Assembly: GCA_032622095.1 (NCBI GenBank)
Contig: CP136062.1
Coordinates: 1,984,001-2,048,000, forward strand
From: Siphonodentalium dalli
Taxonomy: Eukaryota; Mollusca; Scaphopoda; Gadilida; Siphonodentaliidae
DNA length: 64,000 nucleotides
Direction: 5' to 3'
This document shows, one piece after another, positions 17,903 through 54,095 of the stretch. Below the pieces are notes generated by a model that ran no database searches, was not told where the DNA came from, and worked only from the letters and a program-made list of their open reading frames with translations. The first letter of the stretch is position 1. Every line of letters starts with the position of its first letter. The translations under genes were made by a program, and so were the position numbers.

Positions 17903-18766
17903 GAATCACATATTCTATTTATCATATGACACCTATAAATTGATTATGATGTCCAAAACGCACACAAATCACTAAATAGCTATATGACATCGGCAGCAAA
18001 AGGTTAATGTGACGTCACTTCATTGCACCGGAAGCCCAATTACACCTGGTGAACTAGCAGAAATAATATGCACGCGAAGATATAGTGCGCTATTCTTTTC
18101 TCAGTTTGTCGACATTATATCGTATGTTTATTAGATAAATACGAATTATATATTCTATTTATCGTATAACAATGTCCAAAACTATATATTTCAAGATTAT
18201 AATTGCGATAATTTCGGCATCGTGTTGATTGCGCACGAATTTGACCTGCATTTAGTCAGAGGTGCGGCTCGAACCCCGGCTGCCATTCAGACAATCAGAA
18301 CCCACTTTTTGTCAACAAACCAATCAAATTATCGGAAGGTGATATGAATTAGTAACTCATATGAAATTGATTTATGACATAGTTTCCAACGTAAATGATG
18401 ATTGAGTCATATATATACGGAAGTCTCAAAATATATAGTAGATATGGCAAATAATATGATCTTGAGGGCGTTACCATTTCTGACTATGGTTTTCTTGTAT
18501 ATATTCATACATATAAGTTATTCGGATAGAATGCGTACACCAAGTATGTCCCTTTGGCAAATGCGAATAGTACATAATTTTAAACTAAAGTTAGATATTC
18601 GTGATTGTCGCTGGTTTCCACTGATGCGTACACTGGTGTGAAGGGCGATTATTTACTACAGCGGCTTACGCAGGGTAGTACATTACCGCGAACATCATGG
18701 TCTGTCAAACAATCTTCGATGGCGCGTGTTAACGATGCCACTATAGTCTAATATGAACGATGTATT
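17903..18766. other. No gene seen
   Basis: The string ACGAAT(C/T)A(C/T)ATATTCTATTTATC occurs at 17901 and 18141. Otherwise nothing is recognised. A B-box-like GGTTCGAGCC on the minus strand near 18270 has no partner A box. Confidence 0.4.
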
Positions 18767-20743
18767 ATGCATTGTGGACGTTTAAAAATAACAAAATTTA
18801 AAATCAGCAAAGCAAAAGTTAAATTAAGAAACATAGGCAAAGCCGACTGGCAAATATTCAAGCAAGAAATAATTTCAAATCTATCAAACTCTGACCTAAA
18901 CTCACCCAGAGCTCTAGAATTAGCTGCAATAAATATATCGGAAACACTTAATAATGCACTAAACTTAGCATGCCCCAACAAAGATGTAAAATCTTATACG
19001 TGGAGGGTGTCCAGAGATACACTGAATCTTATACGGTTCAAAATGAAAATACGGAGACTCTCAGCGAAGAACCCCCATGACAATGAATATAAAACACTGT
19101 ATAATAACCTCAATAGACAAGTAAAGCAAAAAATCAAAGAGGAAAAAAATGATTCCTGGAAAAGAATAACAACCAGTCTTAATGACCAAAACATGGATAG
19201 AAAATTCTGGCAAACATTCAAAACGCTTACGGGCCAAGGGAACAACGCAACATCAGATAACTCTAAATCACTAACTGACCAAAATGGAAAAAAATCTGAA
19301 AATAACCAAGAAAAAGCTCAAATCTTCGCAGAGAGTCTACGCAAAATCCACATCACCCATGGAGGCGATATATTTAACAAACGTTTTAAACGTTATGTCA
19401 ACGATTACATCGATGACAACTCGGAAATCTTCGCACCACTGCTAAAAGACAAAGTCGAACTGGGTGACGACGATCTCATAATGACCAAAATCGATTTAGA
19501 AGAGGTGATAAGGAATCTGAACCGAGGAAAACCTAACAAAGCACCCGGCGACGACGATATCACGTACGGTGTAATTAGACAAGCGCCGAACGAGCTATGT
19601 ATTCGTCTTACTAACCTATATAACAAATGCCTGAGACTGGGTTACTTTCCCAAAACATGGAAGACTGCAATCGTGACAATGATTCCTAAACCCGGCAAGG
19701 ACCATACCATTCCAACCAACTATAGGCCCATCAGTGTATTGAAATGCACTGGTAAACTTTTTGAAAGGATCATTAGCACTCGCATAAAGACTCACTTAGA
19801 GAGCATTGACTTTTTCAACAAATATCAACGGGCTTATAGAAGTGGGAAAGAGGGCATAGAACACATATATCGATTAATATCGAAGATATTAGAACGGCAA
19901 TAAGCAGGCGTTGGGAAACTGGGGCCATATTCCTCGACGTAGAAAAAGCTGTCGATTCTGTATGGCACAATGGGCTCAGATACAAACTCAGAACACGCAC
20001 AGAACTACCACAAAAATAGTTAGACTTCTATCATCGTGCTTAACACACAGAAACATCGCAGTGATGATAAATGATGAAATTTCAGAAACAGTCAATCTTA
20101 AAGCTGGTACCCCACCCAGGGGTCAGTCTTAAGTCCTCTCCTTTTTTAATCCACTTAAACGATATACCAATAGATTCTACACACAATGTACAAGCATCAC
20201 AATTTGCAGACGACTTGGGCATATGGACACTAGCAAAAGGAAATAAATTAATTGAACTTAGACTGCAAAAACAACTCACAGCACTTGAAAAATGGTGTTC
20301 GAAATGGAGAATAAAACTCAATGCAAATAAAACACAATTGGTAATATTTGGAAACCTAACTCACAGCTCAAAGAAAACTCACGCTATTTAACGAACCAAT
20401 AAAACAAAACAAAGAAGCAACTCTACTAGGATCCACATTAGATGAACACTTCACACTCAACAAGCATATAAAGAACATTTCAACTAAAGCTTTACAAAGA
20501 ACCGCACTCCTAACGAGACTTCGGGGCACAGGGTGGGGGGTCAACCTAACCACCCTATTCAAATTATATAAACAATTAATTCGCCCAGTCATGGAATATG
20601 GGGCAATAATTACTTCAAAATGCAGTCAATCAAACCTAAGCAGAATGCAGCGGGCACAAAACGCAGCACTTAAGAAAGCACTTTTCGAAATAGGCCCAAC
20701 CCCCATTTCGGCTCTGCATTCGACTAGCGGGCGCACGCCCTAG
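18767..20743 (+). pseudogene. Jockey-like non-LTR reverse transcriptase, frameshifted
   Basis: This is ORF2 of a Jockey-clade-like retrotransposon, missing the endonuclease. The first 378 codons hold the pre-RT region and early RT blocks: NKAPGDDDITYGVIRQ (about residues 257-272), MIPKPGKDHT, NYRPISVL and FNKYQRAYRSG. After the stop at 19903 the protein continues in other frames. RT motif A, FLDVEKAVDSVW, lies at about 19930-19965. PRGQS and FADDLGIW (motif C, catalytic DD) lie at about 20110-20230. The thumb/connection region, ending MEYGAI..SKCSQ, lies in a fifth segment ending at 20743. Counting by frame there are at least four frame changes plus nonsense codons. The Asp and DD residues remain, but the reading frame is beyond function. 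The 5' truncation near 18767 is typical of non-LTR insertions. Confidence 0.9.
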
Positions 20744-24696: not shown

Positions 24697-25770
24697 TTCT
24701 TCCCACCAAATCCAAACGGGCTAAGGTAATGCCGTAGCAGGTACATTTGTATATTCTATTCACGCCCCCCCCAAATATTGACCGCTATACTTTAAAAGTA
24801 ACCTACCCAGCGGAGAATGCAAGATGGGGTGGGTTGAGACTTTTGGTAAATTCCACCGAAAATCGCAAAGGGGCAAAATTCAAACATCGAGATAAAAACA
24901 TTTTGACGAGTACATCTGATGGGTAGTTTTCACGCGGATCTAAAGAGCCATTTTCGAATTTTCAGATGGATCGGTTTACTCGTGACAACGCTATCTACTA
25001 CATATTTTGTGACTTCTGTCTGTTTGTCTGTTAGGTATGGCCGGGAAAACTGCCGGACGGATTTCGACGAAATTTGATATCTAGGGGTGCTTTTGTCCCG
25101 GGAGTGTTTTTGACCCCGACCTGGTCATGACTTTAAAAATGGTCAATTCAATGTCAAATCGTGTAAAACGAATGGATTTCCACGAAATTTGATACCTATG
25201 GATACGCTTGTCCGGGGAGTGTTTTGGACCGGTAAAACTGTGTCCCCGACCTGACCTTGACCTTTAAACTGGTCAATTCAAGGTCAAATCGCGCCTTTCG
25301 ACGGGAGTTTGATGAAATTGATACCTAGGGGTGATTTTGTCGTGGGAATGTTTTACACGGGTCAAATCGAGATCCCGACCTTACCTTGACCTTCAAAATT
25401 GTCAATAGGGAAAACAGCACGGACGAAGTCTGGTCAACCTGCTAGTATAATATAAATATTTATACTTAAGTAGTCTATCACTAACCTAATTGTAGCCCCA
25501 AATCCAAACGTGCTAATAAAGATCTAGTTTAATGCAGGAGCATGTACGTCGGTAAACTGTAGGTACGCCTCCAAGATGTATGCTCAGCGGAGAGCTTGCG
25601 TCGGGTGGATTCAGACTTTGCAAATTCCACCGGAAACAAATGTGGAAAATTACTTAAAAAATAAAAATTTGAGACAAAAATTTGTTGACGTGGTCAGAAG
25701 TATCCAGGTGCAACTTTCGAACGATTGTATAAGTTTTAGAGTGGACCGTTTAATCCTGGTAGCGGGTAAC
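24697..25770. repeat. Diverged direct repeat flanking a Helitron
   Basis: The block at 24697-24990, starting CCAAATCCAAACGGGCTAA, is related to 25494-25770, starting CCAAATCCAAACGTGCTAA. Shared strings in order include CAGCGGAGA, GGGT(G/T)GA and AAATTCCACCG. Divergence is high. The 69-codon ORF at 25576 lies in the second copy and is not called. Confidence 0.55.
24994..25445 (+). mobile_element. Non-autonomous Helitron, 452 bp
   Basis: The 5' end TCTACTACATATTTTGTGAC is preceded by A (24993) and followed by CTGTCTGTTTGTCTG. The 3' end is GACGAAGTC (short hairpin), GGTCAACCTG, CTAG (25442-25445), then host T. TC start, CTAG end and an A|T target without duplication match Helitrons. The interior has about three imperfect units containing GGTCAATTCAAGGTCAAATCG and a GATTTCGACGAAATTTGAT core (that core is near 25058-25076). 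It carries no protein-coding sequence. Confidence 0.7.
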
Positions 25771-28904: not shown

Positions 28905-28905
<1 letters not shown>

Positions 28906-30029
28906 TAGAAGGTGAACATACTTCGTCCGGGCTTTGACCTTGAATTGTCCATTTTGAAGGTCAAGGTCAAGTGGGGCCACGATTTGACCAGTCCAAAACA
29001 CTGCCCAGACAAAAGTACCCGACAAACGTGCCCGTCGAAATCCATCCGGTTTTACCCGATTTGACCTTGAATTGATCATTTTGAAGGTCAAGGTCAGGTC
29101 GGGGTCACGATTCAAAACACTCAGTGGACAAAAGTAACCCTATGTGTAAAATTTCGTCGAAATCCCATCAAAATTGACGATTTGACCTTGAATTGACCAG
29201 ATTTCAATGTCAAGGTCACGTCGCACGGGCAAATGAATAGGCCTATGCCACTTCCCTGCCGAAAATACCCCCACATACCAAGTTTTATCGAAATACCGTG
29301 ATATTCGGGCGTTTGACCTTGAATTGACCCGATTTCAAGGTCAAGGTAACGTCGCACGGGCAAATTAATAGACCTATGTCACTCCCCGGCCGAAAATACC
29401 CCCACATACCAAGTTTCATCGAAATCGGCTCGGCCGTTTTCGAGTCCATCGATTAGACACACACACAGACACACACAGACAGACAGATCTTCCAAAAAAC
29501 TGAATATGCTTATGAGACTCCCCATACGAAAGTACCCCACATACCAAGTTTCATCGAAATCCCGTGATATTCGGCGTTTGACCTTGAAATGACCCGATGT
29601 CAAGTTGAAGGTCACGTCGCACGGGCAAATTAAAAGGTGTATGCCACTCCTCGGTCGAATGTACACCCACATACCAAGTTTCATCGAAATTCCGTGATAT
29701 TCGGTCGTTTGACCTTGAATTGACCCGATTTCAAGGTCACGTCGCACAGGCAAATTAATAGGTTTATGCCACTCCCCGACCGAAGGTACCCCCACATACC
29801 AAGTTTCATCGAAATCCCGTGATATTCGGGCGTTTTACCTTGAAATTACCCGATTTCAAGGTCAATGTCACGTCGCACGGGCAAATTAATAGGCCTATGT
29901 CACTTCCCGGCCTAAAATACCCCCACATACCAAGTTTCATCGAAATAGGCTCGGCCGTTTTCGAGTCCATCGATTACAGACACACACACGGACACACACA
30001 CAGACAGTTCTTCCAAAATATATAATAGA
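28905..30029 (-). mobile_element. Helitron A of a head-to-tail array (1125 bp)
   Basis: Read on the minus strand, it starts TCTATTATATATTTTGGAAG (5' end at 30029). It ends with a GCCCGGACGAAGT...hairpin region and CTAG (28908-28905), then host T. Its interior carries tandem units of about 125-135 bases, with starts near 29271, 29402, 29537, 29667, 29792 and 29923. Each unit contains ACCAAGTTT(C/T)ATCGAAAT and GACCTTGAATTGACCCGATT. A truncated internal copy of the 5' terminus (AGATCTTCCAAAA at about 29486-29498) suggests A is itself a fusion of two copies. There is no Rep/helicase gene. Confidence 0.75.
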
Positions 30030-30350
30030 CTAGCCGATGAGCCCGACATTGTCCGGGCTATTCAAAAACCAAATTTCAAGTCGATAGCTCGGCGACCCGA
30101 TAAAATTCGCATCCGGAGCAAGATACATTCACATAGCAAATTTCAAGTCGATAGCTCCACCCGTTTCCGAGATCTCGTCTGCTCATGCGCGAAGCGGGCG
30201 CCGCACGGGCTCGCCAATACGACAACGTCCACCGCCTTGTCAAACTACACACAATTACCAAGTTTCGTCCCGATCGGTCGAGAATCGTAGATTTGTATTA
30301 ATGACAGACAAACAGACAAACAGACAGAGGTCTTCAAAATATATATGAGA
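30030..30350 (-). mobile_element. Helitron B of the array (321 bp)
   Basis: On the minus strand, the 5' end TCTCATATATATTTTGAAGA sits at 30350. The 3' end has a strong AGCCCGGACAATGTCGGGCT hairpin (30038-30057), six bases, then CTAG (30033-30030). It is joined without spacer to its neighbours on both sides. The interior has two AAATTTCAAGTCGATAGCTC copies and one CCAAGTTTCGTCCCGATCGG, the shared core motif. No coding sequence. Confidence 0.75.
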
Positions 30351-31136
30351 CTAGAAGGTGACCCGACTTCGTCCGGACTTTGACCTTGAATTGTCCATTT
30401 TGAAGGTCAAGGTCAAGTGGGGTCACGATTTGACAGTTCAAAACACTGCCCGGACAAAAGTACCCGACAAACGTGCCGTCGAAATCCATCCGGTTTCACC
30501 CGATTTGACCTTGAATTTATGATTTTGAAGGTCAATGTCAGGTCGGTGTCCGGGCTTTGATCATGAATTGACCATTTTGAAGGTCAGGTGGGGTAACGAT
30601 TTGACCCGTCCAAAACACTGCCCGGACAAAAGTACCCGACAAAAGTACCCGTCGAAATCCATCCGGTTTTACCCGATTTGACGTCGAATTGATCATTTTG
30701 AAGGTCAAGGTCAGGTCGGGGTCACGACTCGACCCGTCCAATACACTCAGTGGACAAAAGTAACCCTACGTATCAAATTTCGTCGAAACCCCATCAAAAT
30801 TCGCGATTTGACCTTGAATTGACCCGATTTCAATGTCAAGGTCACGTCGCACGGGCAAATGAATAGGCCTATGCCACTTCCCTGCCGAAAATACCCCCAC
30901 ATACCAAGTTTTATCGAAATACCGTGATATTCGGGCGTTTGACCTTGAATTGACCCGATTTCAAGGTCAAGGTAACGTCGCACGGGCAAATTAATAGACC
31001 TATGTCACTCCCCGGCCGAAAATACCCCCACATACCAAGTTTCATCGAAATCGGCTCGGCCGTTTTCGAGTCCATCGATTACAGACACACACACAGACAC
31101 ACACAGACAGACAGATCTTCCAAAATATATAATAGA
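30351..31136 (-). mobile_element. Helitron C of the array (786 bp)
   Basis: This is a sister copy of Helitron A: 30747-31078 and 29121-29452 are almost identical by eye. It begins TCTATTATATATTTTGGAAG at 31136 on the minus strand and ends CTAG at 30354-30351, with the same GGACGAAGTCGGG hairpin region. It has one more internal unit of the GGTCAAGGTCAGGT type than A. Its 5' flank on the plus strand is T (31137), so the A-before-TC rule holds here. Confidence 0.75.
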
Positions 31137-31157
31137 TCGCGGATGCACTATCCGCGA
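31137..31157. repeat. Perfect 8-bp-stem hairpin abutting Helitron C
   Basis: TCGCGGAT, a five-base loop and ATCCGCGA lie immediately outside the 5' TC of Helitron C. It could be the 3' hairpin of a further Helitron variant lacking CTAG, or host sequence. Confidence 0.6.
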
Positions 31158-31261
31158 TGCGGCGTACTTCTAGTTCGTGCTGTTGTAGGCCTATAAAACG
31201 CAAACAGTTCATTTCCATCAAATAATTTTAGGAGATCGTTTATTGTAAAAACCCATTAGAA

Positions 31262-31679: not shown

Positions 31680-33850
<2,171 letters not shown>

Positions 33851-50732: not shown

Positions 50733-53700
50733 CTAGCAGGGTTACCCGGCGTTGCCCAGGTTAATGTATGCTGTGGATATTTGTTGGGAATAGAGAATGC
50801 TCTTGCTTAAAGTGTTATACGTTTTCTCATAAATTGTATATTCAAATAGCATCACAAAACATGATTATTACAGTCATGGAATATAAGTAGTGGCTCACCT
50901 TGTCAATTGTCATTCTGTTTATCGCGATTAGTCCGTTCCACCAATAATGAAGTATTTATTTATTTACAACTGCGTATACATTACACGTTATAATATGATA
51001 CATGAACATCATAAACACATTCGTTCGATAAAAGATGATAATTGGGTTTTACATATTGAGATGTATCAATCAATCTAGTGGGTTGGACTAAGATCTCGAG
51101 GACACCTGCTTATCATATCTCCATGAAGATACAGATGTTTCAAAGAAATTTCCAGGTGCTCCTCTGTTAATGGTGCTAAATATTGGCTAAATATTCTTAG
51201 TTTAAACGAAATGTTGCTGCGTACATATATATCAGCTACATGTGCCAGGCACAGGGCGAGATTTTGAGTTGTTTATGTCAGTCGATGAGTCTGTTCTAAA
51301 ACCCTTGTCAGATGTCAGTATTGGTAGGATCCTGAAAAGTCTTGTGCTACTAACTGCATTTTCTTGTATATCAGAAGAAACTATATTTGACTGCACACTG
51401 TGACCACTATTTTTGAACAGGCCTTCCATATCTTTTGACAAATTGTAACTTTTTGTGGAAACTGTATTGAATGGAACAGACTAAATTTTGTTATTATATA
51501 TATGCAATCCTCTGACGGTTCGAGGTCTCTCAGTTTGCACGAATATATGTATCTCTTCAATAGAATGATAAATATACGTTTAATGCTTCTTCTAGTTATC
51601 TTTTTTTGTAGCTCATTGTGTGAATGCCTTGATTGTCATTCCCATATAAATATGACTGTTAAGAAGATATAATTGTCCAAGTGACTTATGTGGGTCACCA
51701 TATGTCGGGATTGTGAAATGTGAACGCCCAACTACTTGAAATGATATGGAGATGGCCTGGTGGCTGTATATAACTTATATGTGGATATCGGCGATTAGCA
51801 ATCTTATCAATGATAGTGCATATCCGCTCGCCATCCGTGACGCAAATGACACCAAATGTGATTTAATTCATGGTATATCATTAGAGAAAAACGTGTATGA
51901 ATTTGGTGGAATTTGGTTTATTAAATCAATTGTTGATGCAACGCTGACTCGAACAACGCCATATTGTGAAGGTATTCGTTTGGTGGAAATCAGCGACAAA
52001 ACTATTTCACCATATTTTTTTAATTTCCCCTCCCACCAGGGGGCGGGGGGGGGTGAACAAAAAAAATGCGGCACGTATGCCGGGGTGGGTGGGTGGTCAA
52101 AGCCACCAACAAGCAATTATATCCGCAACTAAAAAAACAAATTCCTGCTTGTTTTTTAGTGTTTTGGCAATGAGTTGGGCTTCAAACCCACTTTGAATGA
52201 GAGAAATAATGTAAATCTAACTGTAAACTGACTGCAGGCAGTTATCGTGTTGTATTTTGTTGCAAATTTTGAAATCCAAGATGGCCGCTGGCAGCCATGT
52301 TTTTTTGGCCGAATGACCTCAAAATGACTCATTCCTATTTACATGTCCATGTTAACATCCATGATAAATAGTATGCACAGAAATTCATATACAGCTGTTT
52401 ACAGTGAATTTTCCCCCGCAAATCTCTGTTTTAGTGTTAAAAGGGGGGTGGGTGTCAAAAAATGGTCGGAAAAAACTGCCGAAAGCGGAAACAAATTTGG
52501 CGGTGGAGGTGGGTGGGTACAAAAAATGATCGAAAGGGAAAAAATGCCATACGTGCCTGAATTTGTTTTCCGACCCCCCCCTGCTCCCACCAACAGCGTC
52601 ATTTTAGAAAATTTTAACCCGCAACATTATCTTCCTTGTAAAAAGTTACCCCTCTTAGAATGCTTTGATGCATCTCGATTGTACCGCGTGAAGTTATATA
52701 TAGAACGCACACAGACAGACAAAAAGACAGACAGACAGCACGATTTTATTTCTTGTATCATTTGAGAAGAACATGTCTGAATTTGATGGTAATTGGTACT
52801 AAAAATATTTTGTATCAGTTTTGGTGACCCTCCCGTCCCTATTTCGGACTCAAGCTGCACACATTAAGACTCATTAGAGATTAGAGATGCATATATATGA
52901 AATTGGTGAAAATTGGCGAGTATACAAATTCGTATCAAATTTAAGGTCCCCATATCTCTCACCCATAGGGCACCAATTTGGTGTATCTAAACCACAAGAT
53001 AAGATTATGTATCAATCTGGTGGAAATCGGCACTAAACATATAGATATAATTTTTTGTGTCCCTTTCATCTCTATACACCACTGACTCGAATGGCCCCAC
53101 TTGTGACATCCTTAAACCACACGATTACACTCCTGATATCATGGAGATGATTGTTTATAAGTTTGGTGATAATCGGCGACTAAACAATTTTTTTTATCAA
53201 ATTTGGTGCCAATCCCTCCCCTCTACATCTCTCACCCAAACAGCACCACTATGGCGTCTTTAAATCACGATTAGATTCCTCGTATCATGGATAAGAACGT
53301 GTATCAATTTGGTGGAAATTGGCGCTAAAACAATTGTGCATCAATTTTGGTGCCCCTGTCCCTTTCAATGCAACCCTGACTCGAATGAGGCCACATTTGA
53401 CAGGTAAAAGCCACACCATTAGACTCCTCATACCATGGGGATGATTGTGTATAAGTGTGATGGCAATCGGCGACTTATTATCAAATTTAGTGCCCACCCC
53501 CTCCCAATCTCTCATCCAAAAACAATAATTTGGCGTTGTTAAATCGCACAATTAGATTCCTTGTATCATGAAGAAGAATATATATCAATTTGGTGGAAAT
53601 CGGCGCTAAAATTAGTTTTATCAATTTTGGTGCCCCTCTCCCCTTCCGTTCATCCCTGACTCAAGCGACGCCACTTTTGACATATTTAAACCACACCGTT

Positions 53701-54044
53701 GGATTATTCATATCATGGGGATGATTATATGTAAGTTTCGTGGCAATCGGCGATAGAAAAAAAATCTGCCCCCCCCCCTTCCGGGCACCCATGACGCGAA
53801 CGGCGCGACTTTTTCCATATTTAAACCACGCCATTAGATTCCTCATATTATGGGGATGATTATATATAAGTTTGGTGGCAATCGGCGACAAATTTTGTTT
53901 CTGCCCCTCCCCCTTTTCTGCCCCTGACAACAACGGCGTCACTTTAGAAAATTCTAACCCGACCATTATCTTTCTCGTAAAAAGCTACTCCTAGTAAACC
54001 CTTTTGGCATCATATAGATGGTCCCCTGTGAATTTCTATAGAAC

Positions 54045-54075
<31 letters not shown>

Positions 54076-54095
54076 TTCGCAAATATAGATATAGA
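50733..54095 (-). mobile_element. 3.4-kb non-autonomous Helitron nested in the tandem family
   Basis: On the minus strand the 3' end is a GGGCAACGCC-containing hairpin region, GGTAACCCTG, CTAG (50736-50733), then T. The 5' end is TCTATATCTATATTTGCG (54095), followed by a (CTGT)n tract. The flanking repeat resumes on both sides: GTTAATTCTGTTTGTGTATA before and TATATAACTATGTGATTTC after. The uninterrupted form of this junction is at about 54675-54711. The interior holds alternating tandem units (52.7-54.0 kb) with AAGTTTGGTGGCAATCGGCG and a monomer like the 61-62.7 kb array at 52266-52378. I see no helicase or Rep domain; the 128- and 140-codon ORFs at 51746 and 52343 run through repeats. Confidence 0.75.
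52750..53990 (-). repeat. Alternating two-type tandem array inside the Helitron
   Basis: Two versions of a roughly 145-base monomer alternate. One has TATCAATTTGGTGGAAAT(C/T)GGCGCTAA (near 53308 and 53582). The other has TATAAGTTTGGTGGCAATCGGCGAC or close variants (near 53155, 53450, 53730 and 53865). Each monomer also has a CCCCTCCC..-type C-rich stretch and a GACTCGAA(T/C)G..CCAC.TTTGACA block. The two-monomer period is about 280-290 bases. Minus-strand ORFs across it repeat the same peptide and are not genes. Confidence 0.65.

Follow-up and report, generated by a model that had tools for sequence, protein, structure and literature searches.

Three short Helitrons lie head to tail on the minus strand of a contig of the scaphopod Siphonodentalium dalli without a single base between them, which raises the question of how such an array is put together. 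The window, by which we mean the whole stretch of DNA analysed, comprises 64,000 nucleotides (C2:1984001-2048000 of a 2.23-Gb genome in nine contigs), and the array in it consists of the following parts:

30351..31136, minus strand: Helitron C, c family, 786 bp, the 5'-most element of the array, A|TCTATTATATATTTTG..CACCTTCTAG|TC
30350..30351, minus strand: joint between C and B, CTAG|TCTC, the same joint being found in L002 and L004
30030..30350, minus strand: Helitron B, b family, 321 bp, TCTCATATATATTTTG..CATCGGCTAG, with a 6-bp hairpin
30029..30030, minus strand: joint between B and A, joint sequence CTAG|TCTA
28905..30029, minus strand: Helitron A, c family, 1125 bp, the 3'-most element, followed by host T; two c bodies fused

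A preliminary description of this DNA had reported three abutting elements in the order C-B-A with these lengths and two inner CTAG|TC joints with zero bases between, and the coordinates, when rechecked, agreed throughout (C 31136-30351, B 30350-30030, A 30029-28905). The 5' ends of all three were likewise as claimed, TCT(A/C)..ATATATTTTG. Read on the minus strand, the outer borders of the array are A|TC before C and CTAG|T after A, giving the layout A|C(786)|B(321)|A(1125)|T, in which the outer bases are those of one ordinary Helitron insertion. In the 5' flank of the array, on the opposite strand, a hairpin with a 9-bp stem lies 11 nt before CTAG|T (31137-31173, plus strand) and resembles the 3' end of an oppositely oriented Helitron.

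The array mixes families, as had been proposed. A and C belong to one family (c) and B to another (b), the similarity of B to C being limited to approximately the first 50 bp of B. Within A, two c bodies have been fused (A 533-1105 versus C 12-589, 93%), and repeats of ~131 bp and ~173 bp are found inside both C and A. Each element had also been credited with a 3' hairpin of its own. This is clear for B, with a 6-bp stem (-6.4 kcal/mol, z -2.1), weak for C (z -0.6), and only partly true of A, whose hairpin has decayed (-1.0 kcal/mol, z +0.8). The end motifs of the b, c, and e families fold as hairpins.

Two solo elements on the other strand of the window bear on where these Helitrons begin and end:

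24994..25445, plus strand: solo element D, a relative of A and C, flanked by A and T
32498..33284, plus strand: solo e-type element, flanked by A and T

Since these solo elements have the same end types and lie between A and T, the ends assigned within the array are independently supported. The 5' TC and 3' CTAG termini of canonical non-autonomous Helitrons are present in A, B, C, D, and the e-type element, and the flanks place the array, D, and the e-type element between A and T. Elements of the DINE-1/HINE/Helentron type are short and non-autonomous with tandem repeats in the body, as are those described here, and Helentrons and HINEs are defined by ends other than TC..CTAG and by insertion at T|T. 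In contrast, the array and the e-type element have canonical TC..CTAG ends and are not T|T insertions.

Several other features of the window deserve mention. On the minus strand, 9271 and 10774 mark two 3' ends of the e type, with hairpin and CTAG|T; they are 1,503 bp apart, within a direct duplication that is also among the tandem-repeat matches. An e-type 5' tip follows A at 18442 (minus strand), with no matching 3' end recognised within 4 kb. At 53194-54095 (minus strand), a TCTATATCTATATTTG tip is followed by TCTG repeats and repeats of ~135 bp, perhaps representing a further Helitron-like family. To judge from its translation, a 378-aa ORF at 18767-19903 (plus strand) resembles part of a non-LTR reverse transcriptase.

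The preliminary description had suggested searching the assembly for joints between these families, and this search shows that exact CTAG|TC joints occur by the thousands. A pattern covering joints of the three families had 20,399 matches in 2.23 Gb, and a pattern with a b-type 3' neighbour had 10,126; the reversed-pattern control gave 0 in both cases, which places the b-type joints beyond chance. These counts, like those of family order below, include segmental duplicates and satellite-like clusters. Exact b tips number 15,660 genome-wide, and a CTAG joint precedes 35 of the first 100 among the matches listed. Arrays can be long: seven elements follow each other in L034, and a single long array accounts for at least 23 of the joints among the matches listed, all inside 21 kb at C1:31.737-31.758 Mb. 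A random survey of 80 kb (L040-L047) held one convincing tip, and genome-wide pattern counts were taken instead. No match to a tip or joint was found in the collections of viral and genome contigs (viral_contigs, genome_contigs). Some individual loci are irregular. L054:253-2242 holds two apparent hybrids of a b tip with an e-type 3' end, e tips lacking the first TC follow a 3' end in L005 (minus strand, 621) and L035 (plus strand, 6213), and in L015 (plus strand, 1501) a b tip stands directly after the CTAG of no recognised 3' end, perhaps that of another family.

Could insertion at A|T sites produce such joints? It had been argued that the G before TC at the inner joints rules this out, but the argument fails. 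If a newcomer inserts after a host A and directly in front of a resident's TC, the product is A|TC(new)..CTAG|TC(resident), exactly the arrangement seen here. Du et al. 2008 had made the same case for two unlike maize Helitrons (PMC2267711). The related claim that ordinary random insertion at A|T is insufficient is borne out by the spacing of the joints. Among the matches listed for the b-type pattern (10,126 in total), 93 of 100 joints were exactly spaced, although the 100 are not all independent, with 23 coming from one long array and others from one cluster. The 7 inexact joints comprised 1 extra T, 1 TA expansion, 3 short tip losses, and 1 each of CTAG|TA|TC and CTAG|TCTA|TC, the last 2 looking like near-border insertions. 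Among 92 distinct complete elements, the body contains a mean of 46 A|T sites and the first 20 nt a mean of 3.8, and uniform targeting of A|T therefore predicts a border share of 2.4% over the whole element or 21% over the first 20 nt. Elements that each inserted independently at a random A|T site would account for the outer borders of arrays, which are mostly A and T. Against these predicted shares, however, the joint counts already refute this reading, and we give it virtually no probability.

The neighbouring A|T sites tell the same story. A pattern for shortened tips had 123 matches, and the 100 listed were of 29 nt (97), 28 nt (2), and 22 nt (1), while a standard b tip interrupted at an inner A|T would be cut to 26 or 24 nt; one of the 28-nt tips could be an inner A|T insertion in a longer tip. 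In the loci examined, exact joints make up 67 of 85 distinct 3' contexts, with host T in 16 and other sequence in 2; one of the 16 (L034) starts like a b tip and is then broken. Exact joints likewise make up 67 of 95 distinct 5' contexts, with host A in 20, host T in 3, G in 1, and other sequence in 4. The 3 with host T are related copies, and 3 of the 4 others are CTA|TC in related copies. Outside the arrays, the host base is thus T at 16/16 3' ends and A at 20/24 5' ends.

The cause originally put forward was rolling-circle read-through or integration of a concatemer. This would have a ready source, since Helraiser produces circles with an exact CTAG|TC joint (PMC4778049, PMC5876387). Concatemers of one Helitron would consist of near-identical neighbours, while C and B differ in family. 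Divergence between b elements has a median of 0.056 for adjacent pairs, 0.068 for non-adjacent pairs of the same array, and 0.063 between arrays, so that an element resembles its neighbour hardly more than it does elements of other arrays, which disfavours concatemers of a single circle. Pairs differing by less than 0.02 number 3/64 when adjacent, 1/78 when non-adjacent in the same array, and 22/4,318 between arrays. Near-copies are thus commoner among adjacent pairs than between arrays, yet few, which indicates that some tandem duplication occurs. A tree of 56 b elements from 15 arrays required 41 label changes compared with a shuffled mean of 41.5 and showed no overall clustering by array. 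L039 alone clusters, in keeping with its internal two-unit duplication, which, with one close adjacent pair in L033, also speaks for single-circle integration. Given the few near-copies, the absence of overall clustering, and the joining of different families in a polarised order that coeval concatemers do not predict, we find the read-through or concatemer reading unsupported as the cause of the arrays and hold it to be quite improbable. What stands of the earlier interpretation, and of the observation on which it was built, is that Helitron-type elements of mixed families are exactly joined and that random A|T insertion is insufficient; neither its exclusion of any A|T insertion from the G before TC nor its concatemer cause does.

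Family order is polarised genome-wide. An element of the b family precedes one of the c family 1,861 times and follows one 462 times, although the two counts would be expected to be approximately equal under random order. The lower count comprises c elements with CACCTT or CACCTG ends and includes the satellite-like clusters at C1:188.85-188.87 and C2:103.71-103.80 Mb; c elements with CTT ends precede b 314 times. The loci examined show the same tendency (13 b before c, 4 c before b), and the C|B joint of the window has the rarer order. This asymmetry bears on a variant of the concatemer idea, in which the ends of different elements are joined during transposition and the product is integrated once. 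Without invoking a preferred target, such an event would account for the exactness of the joints, the mixture of families, and the dissimilarity of neighbours, but it predicts equal counts for the two orders and no order of age, and we regard it as unlikely.

The polarity also has a direction in age. Median pairwise divergence is 0.145 in c and 0.063 in b, and nearest-neighbour divergence at equal sample size is 0.066 in c and 0.037 (0.028-0.046) in b. The higher divergence of c may at least partly reflect subfamily diversity rather than age. A 5' position of the younger family would be in keeping with arrays that grow from their 5' border. Within the b family alone, age increases from 5' to 3' in a first set of 53 elements from 15 arrays, selected because they resemble B (p 0.0006, or 0.002 without the search hits), while a second set of 10 arrays taken from joint-match lists was flat (p 0.39; 34 pairs versus 27). 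Pooling the two gives p 0.012 (91 elements, 25 arrays). Left out of these tests were L021 (a duplicate of L039), loci that overlapped or were duplicates, and those containing only one b element. With all families pooled, no age trend was significant (p 0.15 to 0.45), and the gradient within the family is only suggestive. The e family shows a weaker order, with 566 cases of e before b (AACCTG ends only) and 275 of b before e, and since the e group is heterogeneous we could not use this order as a second clock.

The same age data weigh on serial insertion at the opposite end of the resident, between its CTAG and the following T. This would yield the same final structure, and both a 5' A|T route and insertion at the 3' G|T are on the list that Du et al. 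2008 gave for maize, where some lines have only the left element (PMC2267711). Newer elements would then lie 3', yet the more diverged c is mostly 3' of b, and in the set where b shows an age gradient, its direction is the opposite one. We therefore consider insertion at the 3' border improbable.

Duplication of finished arrays adds to the number of joints. The C-B-A array is also found at C2:0.85 and 5.86 Mb, and because both flanks are common to all three copies these are segmental duplicates; in one of them (L004), A measures 863 bp instead of 1125 bp. The presence of the same joints at C2:0.85, 2.01, and 5.86 Mb argues against a one-off assembly error. The idea that the array of the window moved whole as a composite element is unsupported, the three copies having both flanks in common. 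Elsewhere, L016 and L018 match L017 at 99.8% along the entire stretch compared, L012, L019, and L023 match it in blocks at 97-99%, and in L013, which overlaps L039, the pairs of the internal two-unit duplication have similarities of 0.977 and 0.961. Joints form regular clusters at C1:188.85-188.87 Mb (16 among the matches listed) and C2:103.71-103.80 Mb (17 among the matches listed). Their even spacing there and at C6:57.367-57.374 Mb is like that of Helitron pairs turned satellite units. Arrays thus spread additionally by segmental duplication and satellite growth. As the main source of arrays, however, multiplication of a few founding joints, for which the triplicated array, the relatives of L017, and the regular clusters could be cited, seems very improbable: amplification multiplies joints but does not account for joints in 67 distinct contexts that involve several pairs of families.

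We consider the best explanation of the arrays, and a reasonably probable one, to be that Helitrons insert serially and site-specifically at the 5' border of a resident Helitron. In this reading, one transposase presumably mobilises non-autonomous Helitrons of several families, which would insert one after another, each newcomer entering between the host A and the TC of the resident and leaving A|TC(new)..CTAG|TC(resident)..CTAG|T. The 5' border of the newcomer would then become the next landing site, and arrays would grow at the 5' end. The transposase would most likely recognise the shared 5' tip of the resident (TCTMHTATATATTTTG) and nick A|TC there as if starting transposition, after which the CTAG|TC joint of another Helitron's circle would be exchanged into the nick. 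Mixed families would follow if one transposase is common to them. In favour of 5'-border insertion are the exact joints, the outer A and T in most cases, and the scarcity of insertions at A|T sites nearby, along with the mixed families, the unlike neighbours, and a polarised order in which the 3' position mostly goes to the more diverged family. Against it are the flat second age set, the weaker order of e and b, some tandem duplication, and the rarer order of C and B in the window; nor was any half-filled site seen. A more far-reaching version, which we would put at about even chances, is that resident 5' tips are dedicated landing sites for any compatible family, joined through site-specific recombination of tip to tip, with the order of families in a stack recording the order of their activity.

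Tandem Helitrons with exact joints are already known. Du et al. 2008 described two adjacent, unlike maize Helitrons with an exact G|T joint and argued for consecutive insertions (PMC2267711). That pair resembles the arrays described here in the unlikeness of its members and its exact joint, but it is one case, whereas here there are thousands of joints, arrays of at least 7 elements, and a polarised family order. Maize Helitrons are also said to insert near other Helitrons (PMC3288121). Head-to-tail Helitrons in plants and bats, cited by Grabundzija et al. 2018 (PMC5876387), share exact CTAG|TC joints in genomic DNA with those described here and were read by the authors as rolling-circle tandem copies (PMC5876387, PMC2267711), while the neighbours here are unlike. 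The rice CentHel arrays (Xiong et al. 2016, as cited in PMC10095026 and PMC5148889) are also tandem Helitrons, but are described as truncated and centromeric, whereas those here are mostly complete and dispersed. In the FoHeli self-insertions of Fusarium and Metarhizium, one element lies 2 bp upstream of the 5' end of another, and insertion at the 5' end was offered as the explanation of a three-copy tandem, as proposed here; these differ in having non-canonical ends and in being single cases (PMC5148889). The relaxase TrwC, an HUH enzyme that integrates DNA at a resident oriT, its own nick site, belongs to bacterial conjugation and serves as an analogy only (PMC3264647). In the Helitron literature covered, outside which most subscription papers lie, we found no description of arrays that mix families in a polarised order throughout a genome. 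What is new in S. dalli is the scale, the mixing of families, and the polarity.

Whether adjoining Helitrons arise as concatemers or by successive insertion is disputed, with Pritham and Feschotte holding a view contrary to that of Du et al. 2008, as told by the latter (PMC2267711). The thousands of joints, several families, and polarity found here could decide between the two. If newcomers target the 5' ends of residents, this would constitute a site-specific mode of Helitron insertion besides that at A|T. Such targeting, if true, would keep insertions out of genes and could provide a starting point for satellite DNA.
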